From Gammaproteobacteria bacterium (GTDB lineage: Bacteria; Pseudomonadota; Gammaproteobacteria; UBA6429; Thiohalophilaceae), in assembly GCA_029881995.1 (NCBI GenBank), contig JAOULO010000002.1, positions 1 through 64,000 on the forward strand: 64,000 nt of DNA, in the 5' to 3' direction. The translations under genes and the position numbers were made by a program. The first letter of the stretch is position 1. Each line of letters starts with the position of its first letter. Below the pieces are notes generated by a model, which was not told the origin of the DNA, ran no database searches, and saw only the letters and a list, made by a program, of their open reading frames with translations. Shown in pieces: positions 45,329 through 63,624 of the stretch.

Positions 45329-45793
45329 TTACTGATTAGAACTCAATTGCTCCGGCTTTAACTTAGCCGTAAAATATTCATCCGCATCATCCACATCAAC
45401 CTCATTCCCATCCTTATCAATCATTGGCTGTTCAAACTCATTCCAGCCACGCAAACCAGTCTTGAGTGAAATCACATTTCCAAACCCCATCTCCTGCATG
45501 ACCAGACAGGCGAGGGCGCTACGGCGACCGGAACGGCACACTACGATCACCTCTTTGTCACGGGCATGAGCCAATTCGGGTATGGTTTCTTCGTAATCAA
45601 ATTCAACGGCACTTTCAAGAATACCGCGGGGGACATTGATGGAACCCTCGATCTTCATGGCTTCGAATTCATAAGGTTCTCGTACATCGATGATCATGGG
45701 TTTATCGTGTTCCAGTTTTTCCGCCAGGTCCCAGGGAAAGATCTCCTGGATATGTTGCAGACACTCGTCAACCAGTTGGGTGAATGTTTTCAT
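45329..45793 (-). CDS. rhodanese-domain sulfurtransferase
   Basis: 154 residues, single rhodanese domain. MIIDVREPYEFEAMKIEGSI is split across the N-terminal half of the fold, and the active-site loop VVCRSGRRSALA carries the persulfide cysteine. It lies 30 bp after the response regulator gene on the same strand, so it is probably the last gene of the sensor-regulator operon. In this context it may move sulfane sulfur to the Dsr pathway (rhodanese to TusA/DsrEFH relay) or away from it; the partner is inferred. Confidence 0.9.
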   Translation of the reverse strand: MKTFTQLVDECLQHIQEIFPWDLAEKLEHDKPMIIDVREPYEFEAMKIEGSINVPRGILESAVEFDYEETIPELAHARDKEVIVVCRSGRRSALACLVMQEMGFGNVISLKTGLRGWNEFEQPMIDKDGNEVDVDDADEYFTAKLKPEQLSSNQ

Positions 45794-45823
45794 GGGTAAA
45801 CCTTGTTATTTTTATGAAGAGGA

Positions 45824-46483
45824 TTATGCTGTTGAGCGTGATAGCCCTTTCTCTACTGCCATCACGGCGGCCTCGACACGGGAGTGGACTTCCAGCTTTC
45901 TTAAGATCGCTTTGACATGTAATTTTACTGTGCCATCTGAGATACCGAGGTTACGGGCAATGGCCTTGTTGCTCTGACCTTCGGCAAGCAGTCCCAGAAT
46001 CTCGGTTTCTCGTGGGGTGAGATGAGAAAAGGGGGTGACCTTCTTGTCATCCACCGCATCACTTTTGCCGGATACTGCCTTGGCCAGGATGGGGGCCAGG
46101 TCTGGGGCGACGACGGTTTTACCTGCCACGATGTCGCGCAGGGCCAGTACCAGGTCATCTGGCTCCATATCTTTTAACAGGTAGCCCTGGGCACCGGCCC
46201 GTAGGGATTCCACTAGATCTGATTCTTCACTACTGGTGGTAAGCATGGCGATGGGCATTTCCAGGCCCTGTTCGCGTAACATACCGAGAACTCCAAGGCC
46301 GTTCATGCCGGGCATTCGCATGTCGAGGAGAATCACATCAGGTTTATGTTGATCGATAATGGGCAGGCATTCCTGACCGCTGTTGACGGAGGCAACTACC
46401 TCAATCCCGCGACTACTCAGCAGTCCTTCCAGGCCGACACGAAACAGGGTGTGATCATCGATTAATAAAACTCGCAGGCTCAT
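45824..46483 (-). CDS. NarL/FixJ-family response regulator
   Basis: 219 residues. Receiver domain with LLIDDHTLF (acidic pair), phospho-acceptor Asp in ILLDMRMPGMNG and the conserved Lys in LLKDMEPDD; LuxR-type helix-turn-helix in TPRETEILGLLAEGQSNKAIA and GISDGTVKLHVKAIL. Its start overlaps the sensor kinase stop (ATGA). It is the NarL type, and the dsrA leader contains NarL-heptamer-like repeats, so dsr is the obvious target to test. Confidence 0.93.
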   Translation of the reverse strand: MSLRVLLIDDHTLFRVGLEGLLSSRGIEVVASVNSGQECLPIIDQHKPDVILLDMRMPGMNGLGVLGMLREQGLEMPIAMLTTSSEESDLVESLRAGAQGYLLKDMEPDDLVLALRDIVAGKTVVAPDLAPILAKAVSGKSDAVDDKKVTPFSHLTPRETEILGLLAEGQSNKAIARNLGISDGTVKLHVKAILRKLEVHSRVEAAVMAVEKGLSRSTA

Positions 46484-48156
46484 TTAATAACCTTGTCAAT
46501 GTTTGTTTGAAAATCCACCGGCACATTCTGGTAGGCTGGCATGGCTTGATATTTGAATTGCAGGATCACCTGGGTACCTTCACCCGGTTCACTTTCGATA
46601 CGGATCTCACCACCTATCTGTGTGGCGCGTTCTTGCATGATATTGAGACCATAATGGTCTGTTCTGTTATCAGGGGAACCGGTTGTGATACCGACACCAT
46701 CGTCCTCGATCATGATCATGCAGTTACCATTGGGATCACTGCGTAGCAGGATGCGTACGTTATGGGCATCACTGTGTTTGCGAATATTGTTTAGTGCTTC
46801 TTGAATGATGCGCAGGGCCTGCACCTCGACATTGGCGGCCATGTGTACCAGGTTCCATTCCTTTTGCAGATAGACCTGAATGTCGGTCTGTTTACGGAAG
46901 CGATCCACCAGGTGCTGTACGGCTGGTACCAGGCCTCGATGATCGATAGGCGCACGGAAGTGAGTGATTAACTCACGCAGTTCAGCATAGGCCTCATCGA
47001 GGTTGTTTTCGATCTGCTCCAGTTCGTGCCAGATGTCCTGTTCCTGGCCCTGGCGCAGGGTTTCATCCAGTACCCGCACCTGGAAGCGCAGGCTGGCCAG
47101 GGTCTGGGCCAGGGAGTCATGCAGTTCATGGGCGATACGAGTGCGTTCTTCCATAATAGAGAAGCGGTTGGATTCTTCATCAGAACGTGCCTTATCAATG
47201 GCCATACCCAGGTGGCGTCCGATACTGGTAAGCAGTGCCTCAATACCCTTGGGGTCGACGTAGTCTTCACGATAGACAAACAGGTTATACACACCGAGGG
47301 TTTTATCACGATATTGCAGCGGTACCACCACCATGCCGACGTCTTCCTTGCCGAAGAAGGCGCGACCTACGATTTTGTCACACTCCTTGATATCACGTTG
47401 GAACAGGACCTTGCCTTCATCATAGGCACTGCCACACAGACAGCTGGCAGAGGGGATGATCTGTTCGCGGGACATGAGGTCATCATCCAGACCAATGCTG
47501 GAGACCAGTCGCATCTGGCCATCTTCGGTAGCCAGTCTGACTATTGCAGCACGGGCATGAACCACATCTTTTAAGGTATGTAGAAAACGGGTCAGCAGGT
47601 CTTCCAGATCACGGGAGACATTAATGCTGGCAGCCACATCATAGATGATTTCCAGTGAACGAGTTTTCTGTTCAATATGACGGGTCTGTTTGCGTACCTG
47701 ACTCTGCATGTCCTCGGAGAGGTTTTGCAGGGTGTCACCAAACTCATTGATATCCTTGGCCAGGGCAGCAAACTCACCGGGATAATTGGTCGGGATACGG
47801 GCAGACAGATTGCCGTTATGCATTTCCACAGCCCAGTTACGCAGGTGGGTCAGGGGGGCCAGCAGGTAATTCTGAATTCGATAAAACATGATGCCGAGTA
47901 TTCCCAGTGCGACTACCGTGAGCAGGGTGACAATGGAGTAATACAAAGCGGGTTCAAGTTGATAAACGGCTCCCCACAGACTGAACATACCCAGTGCCAG
48001 GGTTGTGCTGCATAGGGAGAGAAACAGCACACAGAGCCGACCGCGCCACAGGCCGCGAAACAGCTTTTTGTGCAGGCGGTTACTTTCCTCCTCGAATGTC
48101 AGGCTGGCACCCAGAAGGGGAGATTTTTCGGTATGTTCAGTCGGGATACTACTCAT
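46480..48156 (-). CDS. NarX-like sensor histidine kinase
   Basis: About 558 residues from ATG 48156; a GTG at 48165 is also in frame. Two N-terminal membrane helices (about 38-60 and 72-94) separated by only about ten residues, so there is no large periplasmic sensor domain as in NarX. Then HAMP, a GAF-like domain (about 165-320), a HisKA_3 dimer-phosphoacceptor domain (IAHELHDSLAQTL) and an HATPase domain (IEDDGVGI, EPGEGTQV). The GAF region contains a cysteine cluster, SCLCGSA and KECDK, as in the NarX/NreB central module, suggesting redox or FeS sensing. It overlaps the response regulator gene. Confidence 0.92.
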   Translation of the reverse strand: MSSIPTEHTEKSPLLGASLTFEEESNRLHKKLFRGLWRGRLCVLFLSLCSTTLALGMFSLWGAVYQLEPALYYSIVTLLTVVALGILGIMFYRIQNYLLAPLTHLRNWAVEMHNGNLSARIPTNYPGEFAALAKDINEFGDTLQNLSEDMQSQVRKQTRHIEQKTRSLEIIYDVAASINVSRDLEDLLTRFLHTLKDVVHARAAIVRLATEDGQMRLVSSIGLDDDLMSREQIIPSASCLCGSAYDEGKVLFQRDIKECDKIVGRAFFGKEDVGMVVVPLQYRDKTLGVYNLFVYREDYVDPKGIEALLTSIGRHLGMAIDKARSDEESNRFSIMEERTRIAHELHDSLAQTLASLRFQVRVLDETLRQGQEQDIWHELEQIENNLDEAYAELRELITHFRAPIDHRGLVPAVQHLVDRFRKQTDIQVYLQKEWNLVHMAANVEVQALRIIQEALNNIRKHSDAHNVRILLRSDPNGNCMIMIEDDGVGITTGSPDNRTDHYGLNIMQERATQIGGEIRIESEPGEGTQVILQFKYQAMPAYQNVPVDFQTNIDKVIK

Positions 48157-48388
48157 AGAGTCCACTACTGGCTGTCTTATTCAGACAATATTAACAGATT
48201 CTGATAGATAACAGGCCTGGATTTGCATGATTTATCAATTAGATGACCGAAATAGACCTGGTTTAAGCTTTACACCACCTTTCTGATATTCACTCAACAA
48301 TGGAGGGAAATCTTTTATTCTTCAGATTGGAGATGATTAGCACATAAACAGGGCTAATAATGCGTTTAAATGTCCCTAAAAGTGTCTA

Positions 48389-59626: not shown

Positions 59627-60886
59627 TTAACCCGCAGCCTTTTCAGACTGGCGTTCAAACCATTTCTCGGCTTCTTCGTCCCAACCATCCATACGGACGT
59701 AAGAACTCTGGCGTGGGCTACTGACCATGTTTGGATCAACTTCAACACCAACACCTTCCAGGAAGTTAACCAGGCCGATACGTTCAATCATTTCACCAGT
59801 ACGCTCATGTTCCAGGGCGTTCTCAGCAAAGAAGTCGATGATTTCAGAAGCCAGGTCGACCAGCTTTTCGTAATCTTCAGCTGTATCCAGTTTCATGAAT
59901 GGAACAACAACAGTACCCATCAGGTCACCAATCTTCAGTGTACGCTTACCACCGATGAGGATTGTGACACCTTTGTCGTCTCCAGGAGACAGGGCCTTGT
60001 TCATGACGTTCAGGCAGTGCATACAACGTACGCAGTTACCATTGTCAACGTCGAGAGTGTTGTCATCATTCAGAGTCATGCAGTTAGTCGGGCAACGAGT
60101 CGTTACGTTGTCGATAACATAGTCACGGCCTTTGGCGTCGATGAAGGCTTTAACTTCAGCCTGGTCAACTTTCATCTCATCACGCCATGTACCAATGACA
60201 GAGAAGTCAGAACGTTCAATAGAGTTCTGGCAGTCATTTGGACAACCTGAAATCTTGAACTTGAATTTGTAAGGCAGAGCAGGACGGTGTACGTCGTCAG
60301 TAAAGGTATTTACCAGGTGACGCTGAATACCGTGTTCGTTGGCACAGGACTGTTCACAACGAGCAGCACCAACACATGACATTGCAGTACGTACACATGG
60401 GCCAGCACCACCAAGCTCCCAGCCGTATTCGTTGATTTCATCAAAGAAGTGCTGAGTGTTATCAGTAGTAGTACCGATGAACATGATATTACCGGTCTGA
60501 CCGTGGAAGGTCACCATACCTGAACCCCATTTTTCCCAGCTATCAGCCAGTTGGTTCAGCATATCAGTGGTGTAGTAGTTACCTGGTGCAGGCTGTACAC
60601 GCAGGGTGTGGAATTCTTTAGATTCAGGGAAAGCCTTGGCGACTTCAGAAAAACGGGGGATGATACCGCCGCCATAACCGAATACTGAAACTGTACCGCC
60701 TTTCCAGTAGCCCTTACGAGTTTCATAAGAGTGTTCAAGCTGACCTAACAGGGAGTTAATGGTTTCGTTAATGCGAGCATCTGGATGCTCATCACGCATA
60801 CGTTTGAAACCTGAAACAAAGCTCGGCCAGGGACCATCTTCCAGCACGTCGAGCATGGGGGTAGGATGAATTTTGGATTTATCCAT
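59627..60886 (-). CDS. dsrA: DsrA, reverse dissimilatory sulfite reductase alpha subunit
   Basis: 419 residues. Siroheme-4Fe4S ligands appear as SCVGAARCEQSC and SGCPNDCQN, followed by a ferredoxin insert (TRCPTNCMT and CVRCMHCLN). Full length for rDsrA. First gene of the dsr operon; AAGGAG (60893-60898) is a strong ribosome binding site. The leader upstream carries two inverted NarL-like repeats. Confidence 0.98.
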   Translation of the reverse strand: MDKSKIHPTPMLDVLEDGPWPSFVSGFKRMRDEHPDARINETINSLLGQLEHSYETRKGYWKGGTVSVFGYGGGIIPRFSEVAKAFPESKEFHTLRVQPAPGNYYTTDMLNQLADSWEKWGSGMVTFHGQTGNIMFIGTTTDNTQHFFDEINEYGWELGGAGPCVRTAMSCVGAARCEQSCANEHGIQRHLVNTFTDDVHRPALPYKFKFKISGCPNDCQNSIERSDFSVIGTWRDEMKVDQAEVKAFIDAKGRDYVIDNVTTRCPTNCMTLNDDNTLDVDNGNCVRCMHCLNVMNKALSPGDDKGVTILIGGKRTLKIGDLMGTVVVPFMKLDTAEDYEKLVDLASEIIDFFAENALEHERTGEMIERIGLVNFLEGVGVEVDPNMVSSPRQSSYVRMDGWDEEAEKWFERQSEKAAG

Positions 60887-60945
60887 GGTGTTCTCCTTTG
60901 AGAATGTAACCAGTTTTTGTCGGTTAGTGACTTGTAATTAAATTC

Positions 60946-60969
60946 TGCCCATAGCCATTACTATGGGTA
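60946..60969. promoter_or_regulatory. inverted NarL-like heptamers in the dsrA leader
   Basis: TGCCCATAG (60946-60954) and CTATGGGTA (60961-60969) are inverted copies with one mismatch. On the minus strand the second reads TACCCAT, which fits the NarL heptamer consensus TACYYMT. The site is 60-83 bp upstream of the dsrA start. Confidence 0.5.
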
Positions 60970-61059
60970 GATAAAACCACGCTTATAGCTGCGGTGAAGT
61001 CTAGGGGGACAAAGGGCAGAGGAGAACCTCACTAATGGGGTGAATTGCCTATCCCATAC

Positions 61060-61075
61060 TACCCACAATGGGGTA
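61060..61075. promoter_or_regulatory. NarL-like 7-2-7 site upstream of dsrA
   Basis: TACCCAC-AA-TGGGGTA is an inverted pair of heptamers with a 2-bp spacer, the spacing NarL prefers. Each half matches TACYYMT at six of seven positions. It lies about 175 bp upstream of dsrA; two further half sites occur at 61035-61057. Confidence 0.5.
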
Positions 61076-61316
61076 TACCTATTGCCGCTTGCCTTTGATC
61101 CCGACTCTAACGCTCGGTCGTTTTCCGACAGAATTCATAGATTCTGCTTATATAAACAACAAGTTAGAGAAACTTACTTGCTGTAATGGCGCGGCATTAT
61201 ATAACCCCGTGACCTCGGTGTGAATAGAAATGTAAATATTAATGACCCATATCAGAATGTGGCTGTATTACAATAACTATTATCATCGGCCTTTTAAGCA
61301 CGCTAGAGTTTCTTCA

Positions 61317-62246
61317 ATGCAAACCAATACAGTAACGACAATGTTGGATTACAACACAAGCCCCTTTCTGTTAAACAATGTTTCAGCCTATAGGTATTGG
61401 CGAGAGCAGAAGTTGCTGGATTATCCCACCACAGGTGCAGAGTTGCTGGTGGAGATAGAAAATGCCCATTCTCTGAACGATGGGGAATACCAGGCCCTGT
61501 TGCAACTCTGTCACAAGACCAATATGGCAATATATAGTATAAAACAGGGTGACTACGAGTCGAAACAAAGTGTCCTGTCGATTGGTCGACGATTTGGCCT
61601 GGAAAGGCTGGATAATAACCTTTGTGCCGATGAAGATGCGGTGACCTCTCTGAAAATCATGTCTGAGGGACGGCATACAGGATATATCCCCTATACCAAC
61701 AAACCCATTAGCTGGCATACCGACGGCTATTACAACAAACCCGAAGAGCAGATTAGAGGCATGATCCTGCATTGCGTGCAAAATGCCGCCAAAGGTGGGG
61801 AGAATCTGCTCCTGGATCATGAAATTGCTTATCTACACTTGAGAGATCATAATCCCGACTATATAACTGCGTTAATGCATCCGCAGGCCATGACCATTCC
61901 GCCCAATATCGAGGCAGGGAAGGAGATTCGTCCGGAACAGACCGGACCGGTATTTTCTATCGATTCTCTGGGCAATCTGCATATGCGCTATACCGCTCGA
62001 AAGCGGAATATTGCATGGCGTGAAGATGCGTTGACCCAGGAGGCCGTGGCCTGCCTGACTGAATTTTTAGATAGTGATAGTCCTTATATCTTTCGACATG
62101 CGCTACAGCCGGGAGAGGGTTATCTGGGAAATAATGTGCTGCACAATCGCACGGTGTTTGAAGATGATGAGGTCCATCATCGTTTGTTATACCGGGCCCG
62201 TTACTTTGATCGCATCAGCAATACCGATGTGCGTTTGAGTACTTAA
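61317..62246 (+). CDS. TauD/gamma-butyrobetaine-hydroxylase-like Fe(II)/2OG dioxygenase
   Basis: 309 residues from ATG 61317; the frame is open to 61242, but those 25 extra residues look non-coding. The iron-binding motif is WHTDGYYN, His134 and Asp136 by this numbering; the distal histidine is probably in NVLHNRTVF. RALYRARYFDR-like sequence near the end carries the 2OG arginine. Members hydroxylate taurine, carnitine precursors or other small molecules. Divergent from dsrA and first gene of a tight plus-strand run; a substrate containing sulfur is possible but unproven. Confidence 0.82.
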   Translation: MQTNTVTTMLDYNTSPFLLNNVSAYRYWREQKLLDYPTTGAELLVEIENAHSLNDGEYQALLQLCHKTNMAIYSIKQGDYESKQSVLSIGRRFGLERLDNNLCADEDAVTSLKIMSEGRHTGYIPYTNKPISWHTDGYYNKPEEQIRGMILHCVQNAAKGGENLLLDHEIAYLHLRDHNPDYITALMHPQAMTIPPNIEAGKEIRPEQTGPVFSIDSLGNLHMRYTARKRNIAWREDALTQEAVACLTEFLDSDSPYIFRHALQPGEGYLGNNVLHNRTVFEDDEVHHRLLYRARYFDRISNTDVRLST

Positions 62247-62464: not shown

Positions 62465-63148
62465 ATGTTCTGGTCTGAAGAAACCAAAAAAGTAGAATTT
62501 ACAGTTCCCGATGATGTTGTTGATCTGGTCTTTAAACTCGACTGTAAAATGTTACCTCTGGAGCATGCCCATGCCCTGTCACAGGCCATCCATTCTGTAC
62601 TGGACTGGATCATCGATGAGGAACTGGCGGGGATTCATCAGATACATGTGGCCGAATCCGGCAATGGCTGGATGAGACCGGAAGATCCCACCAATGAAGT
62701 ATTAAACCTCTCACGGCGTACTCGTATGACACTACGTGTGCCGAAGGAGCGAGTCGAAGATGCCAGACAACTGACCGGTCAGACCCTGGATATTGATGGC
62801 TATAGCCTGACCGTAGGTGAAGCCAGTATCAAGCCTCTTAGCGATATCACCATTCTGTTTTCCCGTTATGTGGTTTGTGATCAGGAATCCAGTGAAGAAC
62901 AGTTTTTATACGCTATTGCCGAAGAATTAAAGGCCATGGATATTCCAGTGAAAAAGATGATGGCCGGTAAACAGCATGTGATCAAGACGCCTGATAGTGA
63001 GCTCACAACCCGCAGTGTGATGGTGGCGGATCTGGATAAAGAGCATGCTATTCTTTTGCAGCAACGAGGTATTGGGCCAGGGCGTCATCTTGGTTGTGGG
63101 ATATTTGTTCCTCAGAAGGGAATCAAGCCGGTAAAGGACACTTCCTGA
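62465..63148 (+). CDS. Cas6/Cmx6-like RAMP protein, no CRISPR array nearby
   Basis: 227 residues. The sequence resembles the type I-MYXAN Cas6/Cmx6 family (TIGR02807) as I remember it: ESGNGWMRPED, LSRRTRMTLRVPKE, and the C-terminal glycine-rich loop GIGPGRHLGCGIFVPQKGI (202-220), the G-x-G-type loop that Cas6 RAMP proteins use for RNA binding. Histidines at 34, 36 and 43 could serve as a general base. Cas6 cuts CRISPR precursor RNA, but there is no array or other cas gene here, and it is packed 9 bp behind a small protein gene beside dsr. It may process or bind another RNA. Identification rests on motif recognition only. Confidence 0.7.
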   Translation: MFWSEETKKVEFTVPDDVVDLVFKLDCKMLPLEHAHALSQAIHSVLDWIIDEELAGIHQIHVAESGNGWMRPEDPTNEVLNLSRRTRMTLRVPKERVEDARQLTGQTLDIDGYSLTVGEASIKPLSDITILFSRYVVCDQESSEEQFLYAIAEELKAMDIPVKKMMAGKQHVIKTPDSELTTRSVMVADLDKEHAILLQQRGIGPGRHLGCGIFVPQKGIKPVKDTS

Positions 63149-63285: not shown

Positions 63286-63624
63286 ATGGTAATTGAAGTA
63301 AACGGTAAAACAATCGAAACAACCGAAAATGGTTATCTGGTAAATCTAGAAGACTGGAACGAAGATGTCGGCAAGATCCTGGCCGAAGGAGAAGGTATCG
63401 AAATGACCCAGGAACACTGGGATGTTGTCAAATATCTGCGTGATGAGCATTTTAACAACGCTGGCAACGAGCCAAATGAGCGCACCATTCTGAAGGATAT
63501 GGGCAAGAAATGGGGTAAGAAGGTCTCGTCCAAGGATATGTACCTGATGTTCCCACAAATGCCTTCAAAGCAGGGCCGTAAAATCGCCGGTCTACCACAG
63601 AGTACGCGAAAAGGCGGCTACTAA
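63286..63624 (+). CDS. DsrC/TusE-family paralogue without cysteines
   Basis: 112 residues, clearly homologous to the DsrC encoded at 56979 (EVNGKTIETTENGYLVNLEDW; IAGLPQST at the C-terminus), but both catalytic positions are changed: Cys98 to Arg and Cys109 to Lys, and there is no cysteine anywhere. It cannot carry sulfur. Cysteine-less DsrC homologues have been named RspA and proposed to be regulatory. It lies 137 bp after the Cas6-like gene, with GAGAGGG upstream of its ATG. Confidence 0.92.
   Translation: MVIEVNGKTIETTENGYLVNLEDWNEDVGKILAEGEGIEMTQEHWDVVKYLRDEHFNNAGNEPNERTILKDMGKKWGKKVSSKDMYLMFPQMPSKQGRKIAGLPQSTRKGGY

Follow-up and report, generated by a model that had tools for sequence, protein, structure and literature searches.

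The window analysed here is a stretch of 64,000 nucleotides that carries a dsr cluster. The first gene of this cluster, dsrA (59627-60886, minus strand), matched TIGR02064 with 609 bits against a cut-off of 393, and DsrC is also encoded in the cluster. About 14 kb downstream of dsrA, and on the same minus strand, lie the genes for a rhodanese-like protein (45329-45793), a NarL-type response regulator (45824-46483) and a histidine kinase (46480-48165); these correspond to the operon with a NarL-type regulator that the initial annotation had placed at 45329-48156. The rhodanese-like gene adjoins the regulator in many relatives (71 of the 94 loci examined, duplicates counted). Upstream of dsrA, a gap extends to a TauD-like gene on the plus strand (61242-62246), and two inverted repeats sit in this gap, at 60944-60971 and at 61060-61075. 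Just past the dsrA promoter, a cas6/cmx6 gene (62465-63148) was observed between the TauD-like dioxygenase gene and a TusE/DsrC-like gene (63286-63624).

The NarL heptamer has the consensus TACYYMT, with C at position 3. Two inverted arrangements of such heptamers, with 10-bp and 2-bp spacing, had been proposed for this gap; both are present, and the one with the 2-bp spacing turned out to be conserved in relatives. This repeat (61060-61075, minus strand; TACCCCATTGTGGGTA) consists of the inverted heptamers TACCCAC-AA-TGGGGTA, has the 7-2-7 geometry of NarL sites and differs by one mismatch from the palindrome TAYCYC-N4-GRGRTA. The dsrA upstream regions used for comparison were taken from 80 named loci and from 40 genomes of the window's family; the 109 loci with a dsrA match gave 93 distinct regions, of which 91 were used and two were too short. 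The palindrome was found exactly in 63 of the 91 regions, with at most one mismatch in 88 and with at most two in 90, compared to averages of 0.1, 0.7 and 10.6 in 20 rounds of dinucleotide shuffling of the same regions, these loci being related to each other and not independent. With spacers from 0 to 10 other than 4, no exact match was obtained in the 91 regions. The single locus without the palindrome at up to two mismatches (L115) has a dsrA 66% identical to that of the window. Position 3 of the palindrome was T in 60 of 90 loci and C in the other 30. As the aligned upstream regions held little information in the columns outside the palindrome and the downstream boxes, an alignable shared promoter is not the explanation of this conservation.

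The exact palindrome was also concentrated at dsrA. It occurred 62 times in the 80 named loci (1.30 Mb), versus 0-5 times for each of seven control patterns, and 59 of the 62 copies lay within 360 bp upstream of dsrA. Judging from this conservation, the 2-bp-spaced repeat at 61060-61075 very probably represents a genuine operator. The isolated output domain of E. coli NarL binds an engineered 7-2-7 site, TACCCCTAAAGGGGTA, according to the available text of PMC4549865, and this sequence nearly equals the predicted dsrA operator. The extra half sites that had been listed for the gap carried no weight, as single TACYYMT heptamers were not enriched in the window (51 against 62 expected) and were dropped as evidence. 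A variant of the operator, TATCCC-N4-GGG(A/G)GG, was noticed upstream of dsrA in G220, G427, G332 and G315 (loci L307, L310, L312 and L313).

A motif search was run on 161 palindrome-bearing sequences. In 138 of them, a second box with the consensus CACCCCATCGGTAGGGTTTT started 16-18 bp past the palindrome, and in 126 of the 161 a TANANT hexamer was located 38-40 bp past the start of this box. The ends of the second box resemble the half-sites of the palindrome, in inverted order and with a spacer of 6, where the palindrome has 4; scored against these half-sites, they gave means of 1.1 and -4.6, the background being -21.6 (SD 9.4). The quality of the box was uneven, with a median of 20.5 and the lowest 5% of the sequences below -4.4. 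In five of the six dsrA genomes that lack the regulator (see below) the box was at background, and the score of G342 was reached by 4 of 200 shuffles. The second box probably serves the same regulator as an additional, weaker site.

In the window, motif search and scoring placed this degenerate second box, CACCCC-N6-GAGGTT, at 61025-61042 (minus strand), where it overlaps the -35 region. The -10-like hexamer of the predicted promoter, TAGACT (60998-61003, minus strand), was found by the motif search at a near-fixed distance and would put the predicted start of transcription near 60991; counted from there, the palindrome would be centred near -76 and the box would lie near -42. From this arrangement we infer the roles of the three elements and a dsrA promoter in which the -10 is fair and the -35 poor. 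The predicted layout is similar to that of the E. coli nrf promoter, for which the available text of PMC5434802 gives NarL/NarP at -74.5 and FNR at -41.5.

The 10-bp-spaced arrangement, TGCCCAT-N10-ATGGGTA, behaved differently. It is contained in the inverted repeat at 60944-60971 (minus strand), downstream of the predicted start and hence in the predicted 5' untranslated region. Among five sequences picked as the closest relatives, the stem was kept while the sequence changed: 92.5% of the cells were paired, five of the eight pairs had changed on both sides, the covariation score was reached by 6 of 500 shuffles, and slid versions of the stem scored far lower. An Rfam scan of the promoter region gave no match at E≤1. 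Given its location past the predicted promoter and the compensatory changes, this repeat probably does not represent two paired NarL sites, and that reading was rejected; the evidence that it forms an mRNA hairpin in the 5' untranslated region is good but small in sample.

The distribution of the regulator was then compared to that of dsrA. In the window's family, dsrA (E below 1e-100) was detected in 31 of 40 genomes and the regulator in 29 of these 31, as well as in six of the nine genomes without dsrA (G005, G008, G015, G016, G029 and G032). Across the class, 369 genomes were searched with cut-offs of E≤1e-100 for dsrA and E≤1e-50 for the regulator, revealing dsrA in 117 and the regulator in 124; both were present in 109, dsrA only in 8, the regulator only in 15 and neither in 237 (Fisher p 4e-66, kinship ignored). 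Both genes were on one contig in 60 of the 109 genomes, and in 56 of these 60 the regulator lay within 25 kb of dsrA (median 15.2 kb, 36 families). The kinase/regulator pair comes after dsrN and an IscA-like gene in several distant genomes, as is also the case in the window, and 1.1-Mb genomes with 3-6 first-look regulator candidates still hold the regulator beside dsr (G374 and G128).

The surroundings of the regulator were looked at in 9 of the 15 regulator-only genomes. Other dsr genes adjoin it in G386 and G372, the stretch stops at the contig edge in G156 and G182, and the surroundings hold no dsr genes in G233 and G278. In the latter two, the regulator and kinase orthologues adjoin an ABC-transporter-like gene (L391 4216-6482 and L354 13915-16145, respectively). 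In G222 (L353), which is also without a dsrA match, dsrE-, dsrF-, dsrH- and dsrC-like genes adjoin the kinase and the regulator.

The initial annotation had proposed to look for the motif upstream of dsrA in relatives that carry the regulator. For this comparison, 8 of the 117 dsrA genomes were left out on account of unusable upstream sequence. Among the 103 regulator-bearing dsrA genomes, the site was present within 350 bp with at most one mismatch in 86 and only in a two-mismatch form in 13, which makes 99 with at most two; the remaining four (G392, G285, G354 and G441) had none, and G285 has a one-mismatch site at -443. In contrast, none of the six dsrA genomes without the regulator had the site, the best forms containing three mismatches in five of them and four in the other. 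Counted by family, the site was found in 49 of 53 with the regulator versus 0 of 3 without it (p 0.0013). The six genomes are 94-100% complete, and three of them measure 1.0-1.1 Mb. A search at E≤1e-12 gave no regulator at all in three of these genomes and, in the other three, none above 32-34% identity. All six keep DsrC, with 74-85% identity to that of the window.

Exceptions were also found in the opposite direction. Ten MAGs have the site and no detected regulator: eight of the 50 named genomes (the check covered 50 of the 80 named loci), in which the E≤1e-12 search found distant regulators only, and two of the 40 family genomes (G002 and G020, the locus of G020 lying inside L018). In nine of the ten, with G068 as the exception, the dsr contig stops within ~14 kb of dsrA, short of where the regulator usually lies, so that a gap in the assembly is likely. 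Were the regulator truly missing from all ten, the argument from co-loss would be a weak one. Site-like sequences at some second copies of dsrA were likewise counted against the pairing, as were the genomes with the regulator and no dsrA (15 of the 369 and six of the nine in the family). The association of the NarL-geometry site at dsrA with the regulator at 45824-46483, as originally proposed, was right in substance and reaches well beyond the genome of the window.

The number of possible targets was assayed in 16 mostly complete genomes, which contained 0-5 exact palindromes each and 30 in total, versus 13 for a reversed control. Ten of the 30 were dsrA promoters, and the dsrA promoter was the sole exact copy in G128, G268, G198, G133 and G211; in G108 the single exact site was not at dsrA. 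From these patterns, dsrA would be the main target, with a few others possible. In G000, the palindrome at up to one mismatch was not enriched genome-wide (69 against 63 for the reversed control), and the definition of a regulon in this genome from the pattern alone was dropped. The exact palindrome was absent from the kinase/regulator loci, which gives no sign of self-control, and this candidate was rejected; with one mismatch allowed, sites were found there only in L120, L174 (the same site in L241) and L385, while L388 holds a dsrA site. A second exact operator was detected in the 1.5-Mb genome G412 (L363 1501-1516), where it precedes by 99 bp a gene whose sequence was read as that of sat; in the related genome G198, a copy with one mismatch lies at -100 of sat. 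Among the 27 genomes with a sat match, the other 25 had no site at up to one mismatch at this gene, and sat was rejected as a general target. Exact palindromes were also seen 8-9.5 kb upstream of dsrA in three loci (L023 1914-1929, L024 488-503 and L035 1205-1220).

The regulator contains a receiver domain (PF00072, 104 bits) and a LuxR-type GerE domain (PF00196, 81 bits), both above cut-off, and is a response regulator of the NarL/FixJ type. Against the NarL equivalog NF007935 it scored 225.1, below the curated cut-off of 250; among relatives with a solved structure, the best was E. coli NarL (1a04). Its recognition helix, TVKLHVK, was invariant in 87 orthologues and corresponds to TVKVHVK in E. 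coli NarL; leucine for valine in the helix and T over C at position 3 of the site may go together.

The kinase is made up of two membrane segments, a HAMP domain, a GAF domain with Cys242, Cys244 and Cys262, HisKA_3 and HATPase_c. Its initial label, NarX, is misleading, as it scored 253 against the NarQ model (cut-off 553) and 178 against the NarX model (cut-off 578), and, by a test based on hydropathy only, about 4-17 residues separate the membrane segments where two are called, compared to about 120 in E. coli NarX (residues 33 to 154). As the kinase falls below both cut-offs and has hardly anything between its membrane segments, a NarX-like mode of nitrate binding is not expected of it, and nitrate control of the NarX style is unlikely. 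The GAF cysteines 242, 244 and 262 (window numbering) were conserved in 73 of 81, 67 of 83 and 71 of 82 sequences, respectively; in the dsr-less G233 and G278, the kinase has no CxC motif. We put forward the hypothesis that these cysteines sense sulfur or redox state, with help from the rhodanese. In Allochromatium vinosum, NarX/NarL are described and no obvious nitrate reductase genes are reported in the available text of PMC3368242, which would fit a sulfur or redox signal if that pair is orthologous. In G374, G128 and G268 (L376, L377 and L379; 1.1-1.7 Mb), the kinase-core frame has just 301-329 residues, and the regulator and a site with at most one mismatch are retained.

The operator, its spacing, its rarity elsewhere, its co-occurrence and co-loss with the regulator and the linkage of the genes were all computed. 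On this basis we consider it probable that a two-component system dedicated to dsr activates dsrA, mainly from one operator and in response to a signal other than nitrate. The system would consist of the kinase (46480-48165) and the regulator (45824-46483) and would be devoted to the oxidative dsr operon. Once phosphorylated, a dimer of the regulator would bind TAYCYC-N4-GRGRTA, ~76 bp upstream of the dsrA start predicted above, and probably also the weaker box near -42, and would recruit RNA polymerase to the predicted promoter, whose -10 is fair and whose -35 is poor. The kinase would probably respond to the sulfur or redox state inside the cell, by way of its GAF domain and the cysteines in it, and not to nitrate. 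Binding by this regulator, activation over repression, the occupation of both boxes by one protein and the nature of the signal are what we infer.

Other explanations for the palindrome were weighed against this proposal. It could be the operator of another regulator with the same distribution, such as a different conserved transcription factor of sulfur oxidizers, as the ten MAGs with a site and no detected regulator and the lack of a site at the promoter of the kinase/regulator operon itself would suggest. We regard this as unlikely, because the site has a NarL-specific geometry and is near-identical to one bound by E. coli NarL (available text of PMC4549865), the recognition helix is invariant across the 87 orthologues, the regulator is linked to dsr in 36 families, regulator and site have been lost jointly in three families, and the NarL-type regulator survives in genomes with as few as 3-6 first-look candidates. 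DsrC, which is reported to bind DNA, is encoded in the cluster; Grimm et al. reportedly proposed in 2010, for A. vinosum, that it binds upstream of dsrA and controls the operon. Each of the six genomes that lack both the regulator and the palindrome has retained DsrC, so this protein does not explain why the palindrome is conserved, although it could still bind elsewhere, and we hold its control of dsrA through the upstream region to be very improbable.

Two further readings accept the regulator and change its action. Many sulfur oxidizers respire nitrate, and an ordinary NarX/NarL nitrate switch could couple sulfur oxidation to nitrate as electron acceptor, in line with the sequence relation to NarL, NarX and NarQ and with the 7-2-7 site. 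This seems rather improbable for a kinase without room for a periplasmic nitrate domain and for proteins that score under the curated NarL, NarX and NarQ cut-offs; the A. vinosum NarXL without obvious nitrate reductase genes, if comparable, would also speak against it (available text of PMC3368242). Repression of dsrA in place of activation has to be considered too, as NarL-type regulators both activate and repress. The inferred position upstream of a weak -35, together with the activating precedent of NarL/NarP at -74.5 of E. coli nrf (available text of PMC5434802), makes repression unlikely. An activating, dsr-dedicated system remains the preferred reading: in Gammaproteobacteria, the site and the regulator, whose gene often sits at the opposite end of the cluster, tend to occur and vanish together, which points to a dedicated dsr switch, probably not a nitrate-sensing one.

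A wider proposal can be made only tentatively, and we think it more doubtful than the activating system itself. A sulfur-sensing dsr system would be ancestral to the gammaproteobacterial oxidative dsr locus; the rhodanese would load sulfane sulfur onto the CxC...C cysteines of the kinase GAF domain; the regulator would turn on essentially one promoter, that of dsrA, and in one lineage that of sat too; and streamlined genomes would keep the regulator or lose regulator and operator jointly.

Oxidative Dsr is a main sulfur-oxidation route in Gammaproteobacteria, and its control is poorly known. In the available text of open-licence PMC papers, no assignment of a two-component system to dsr was found. 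The regulator, the 16-bp operator, the second box and the promoter position hold across many families, which makes the proposal testable in any tractable dsr organism, and our results suggest that 'NarXL' labels in sulfur oxidizers may conceal a sulfur regulator.

Compared to known systems, the dsr-linked pair shares with E. coli NarXL a HisKA_3 kinase, a NarL-type regulator with a near-identical recognition helix, and a TACCCC..GGGGTA-type site with 2-bp heptamer spacing. It differs in the absence of a periplasmic nitrate domain, in the CxC...C cysteines of the GAF domain, in the linkage to dsr and in having the dsrA promoter as the sole exact site in 5 of the 16 genomes examined. Among regulators of sulfur oxidation, NreBC of Bacillus licheniformis is likewise a two-component system in a sulfur gene cluster with a rhodanese-like protein, and activates the sulfide-oxidation genes sqr and pdo; it has a PAS sensor reported to sense sulfide, a Gram-positive host and other targets (available text of PMC9918477). 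RsrS-RsrR of Acidithiobacillus caldus also exerts two-component control over a sulfur-oxidation pathway, in its case that of tetrathionate, the likeness being one of description (available text of PMC5093147). Finally, sHdrR and SoxR of Hyphomicrobium denitrificans similarly regulate bacterial thiosulfate oxidation, but as ArsR-type, sulfane-sulfur-responsive repressors and not as a two-component system (available text of PMC12423496).
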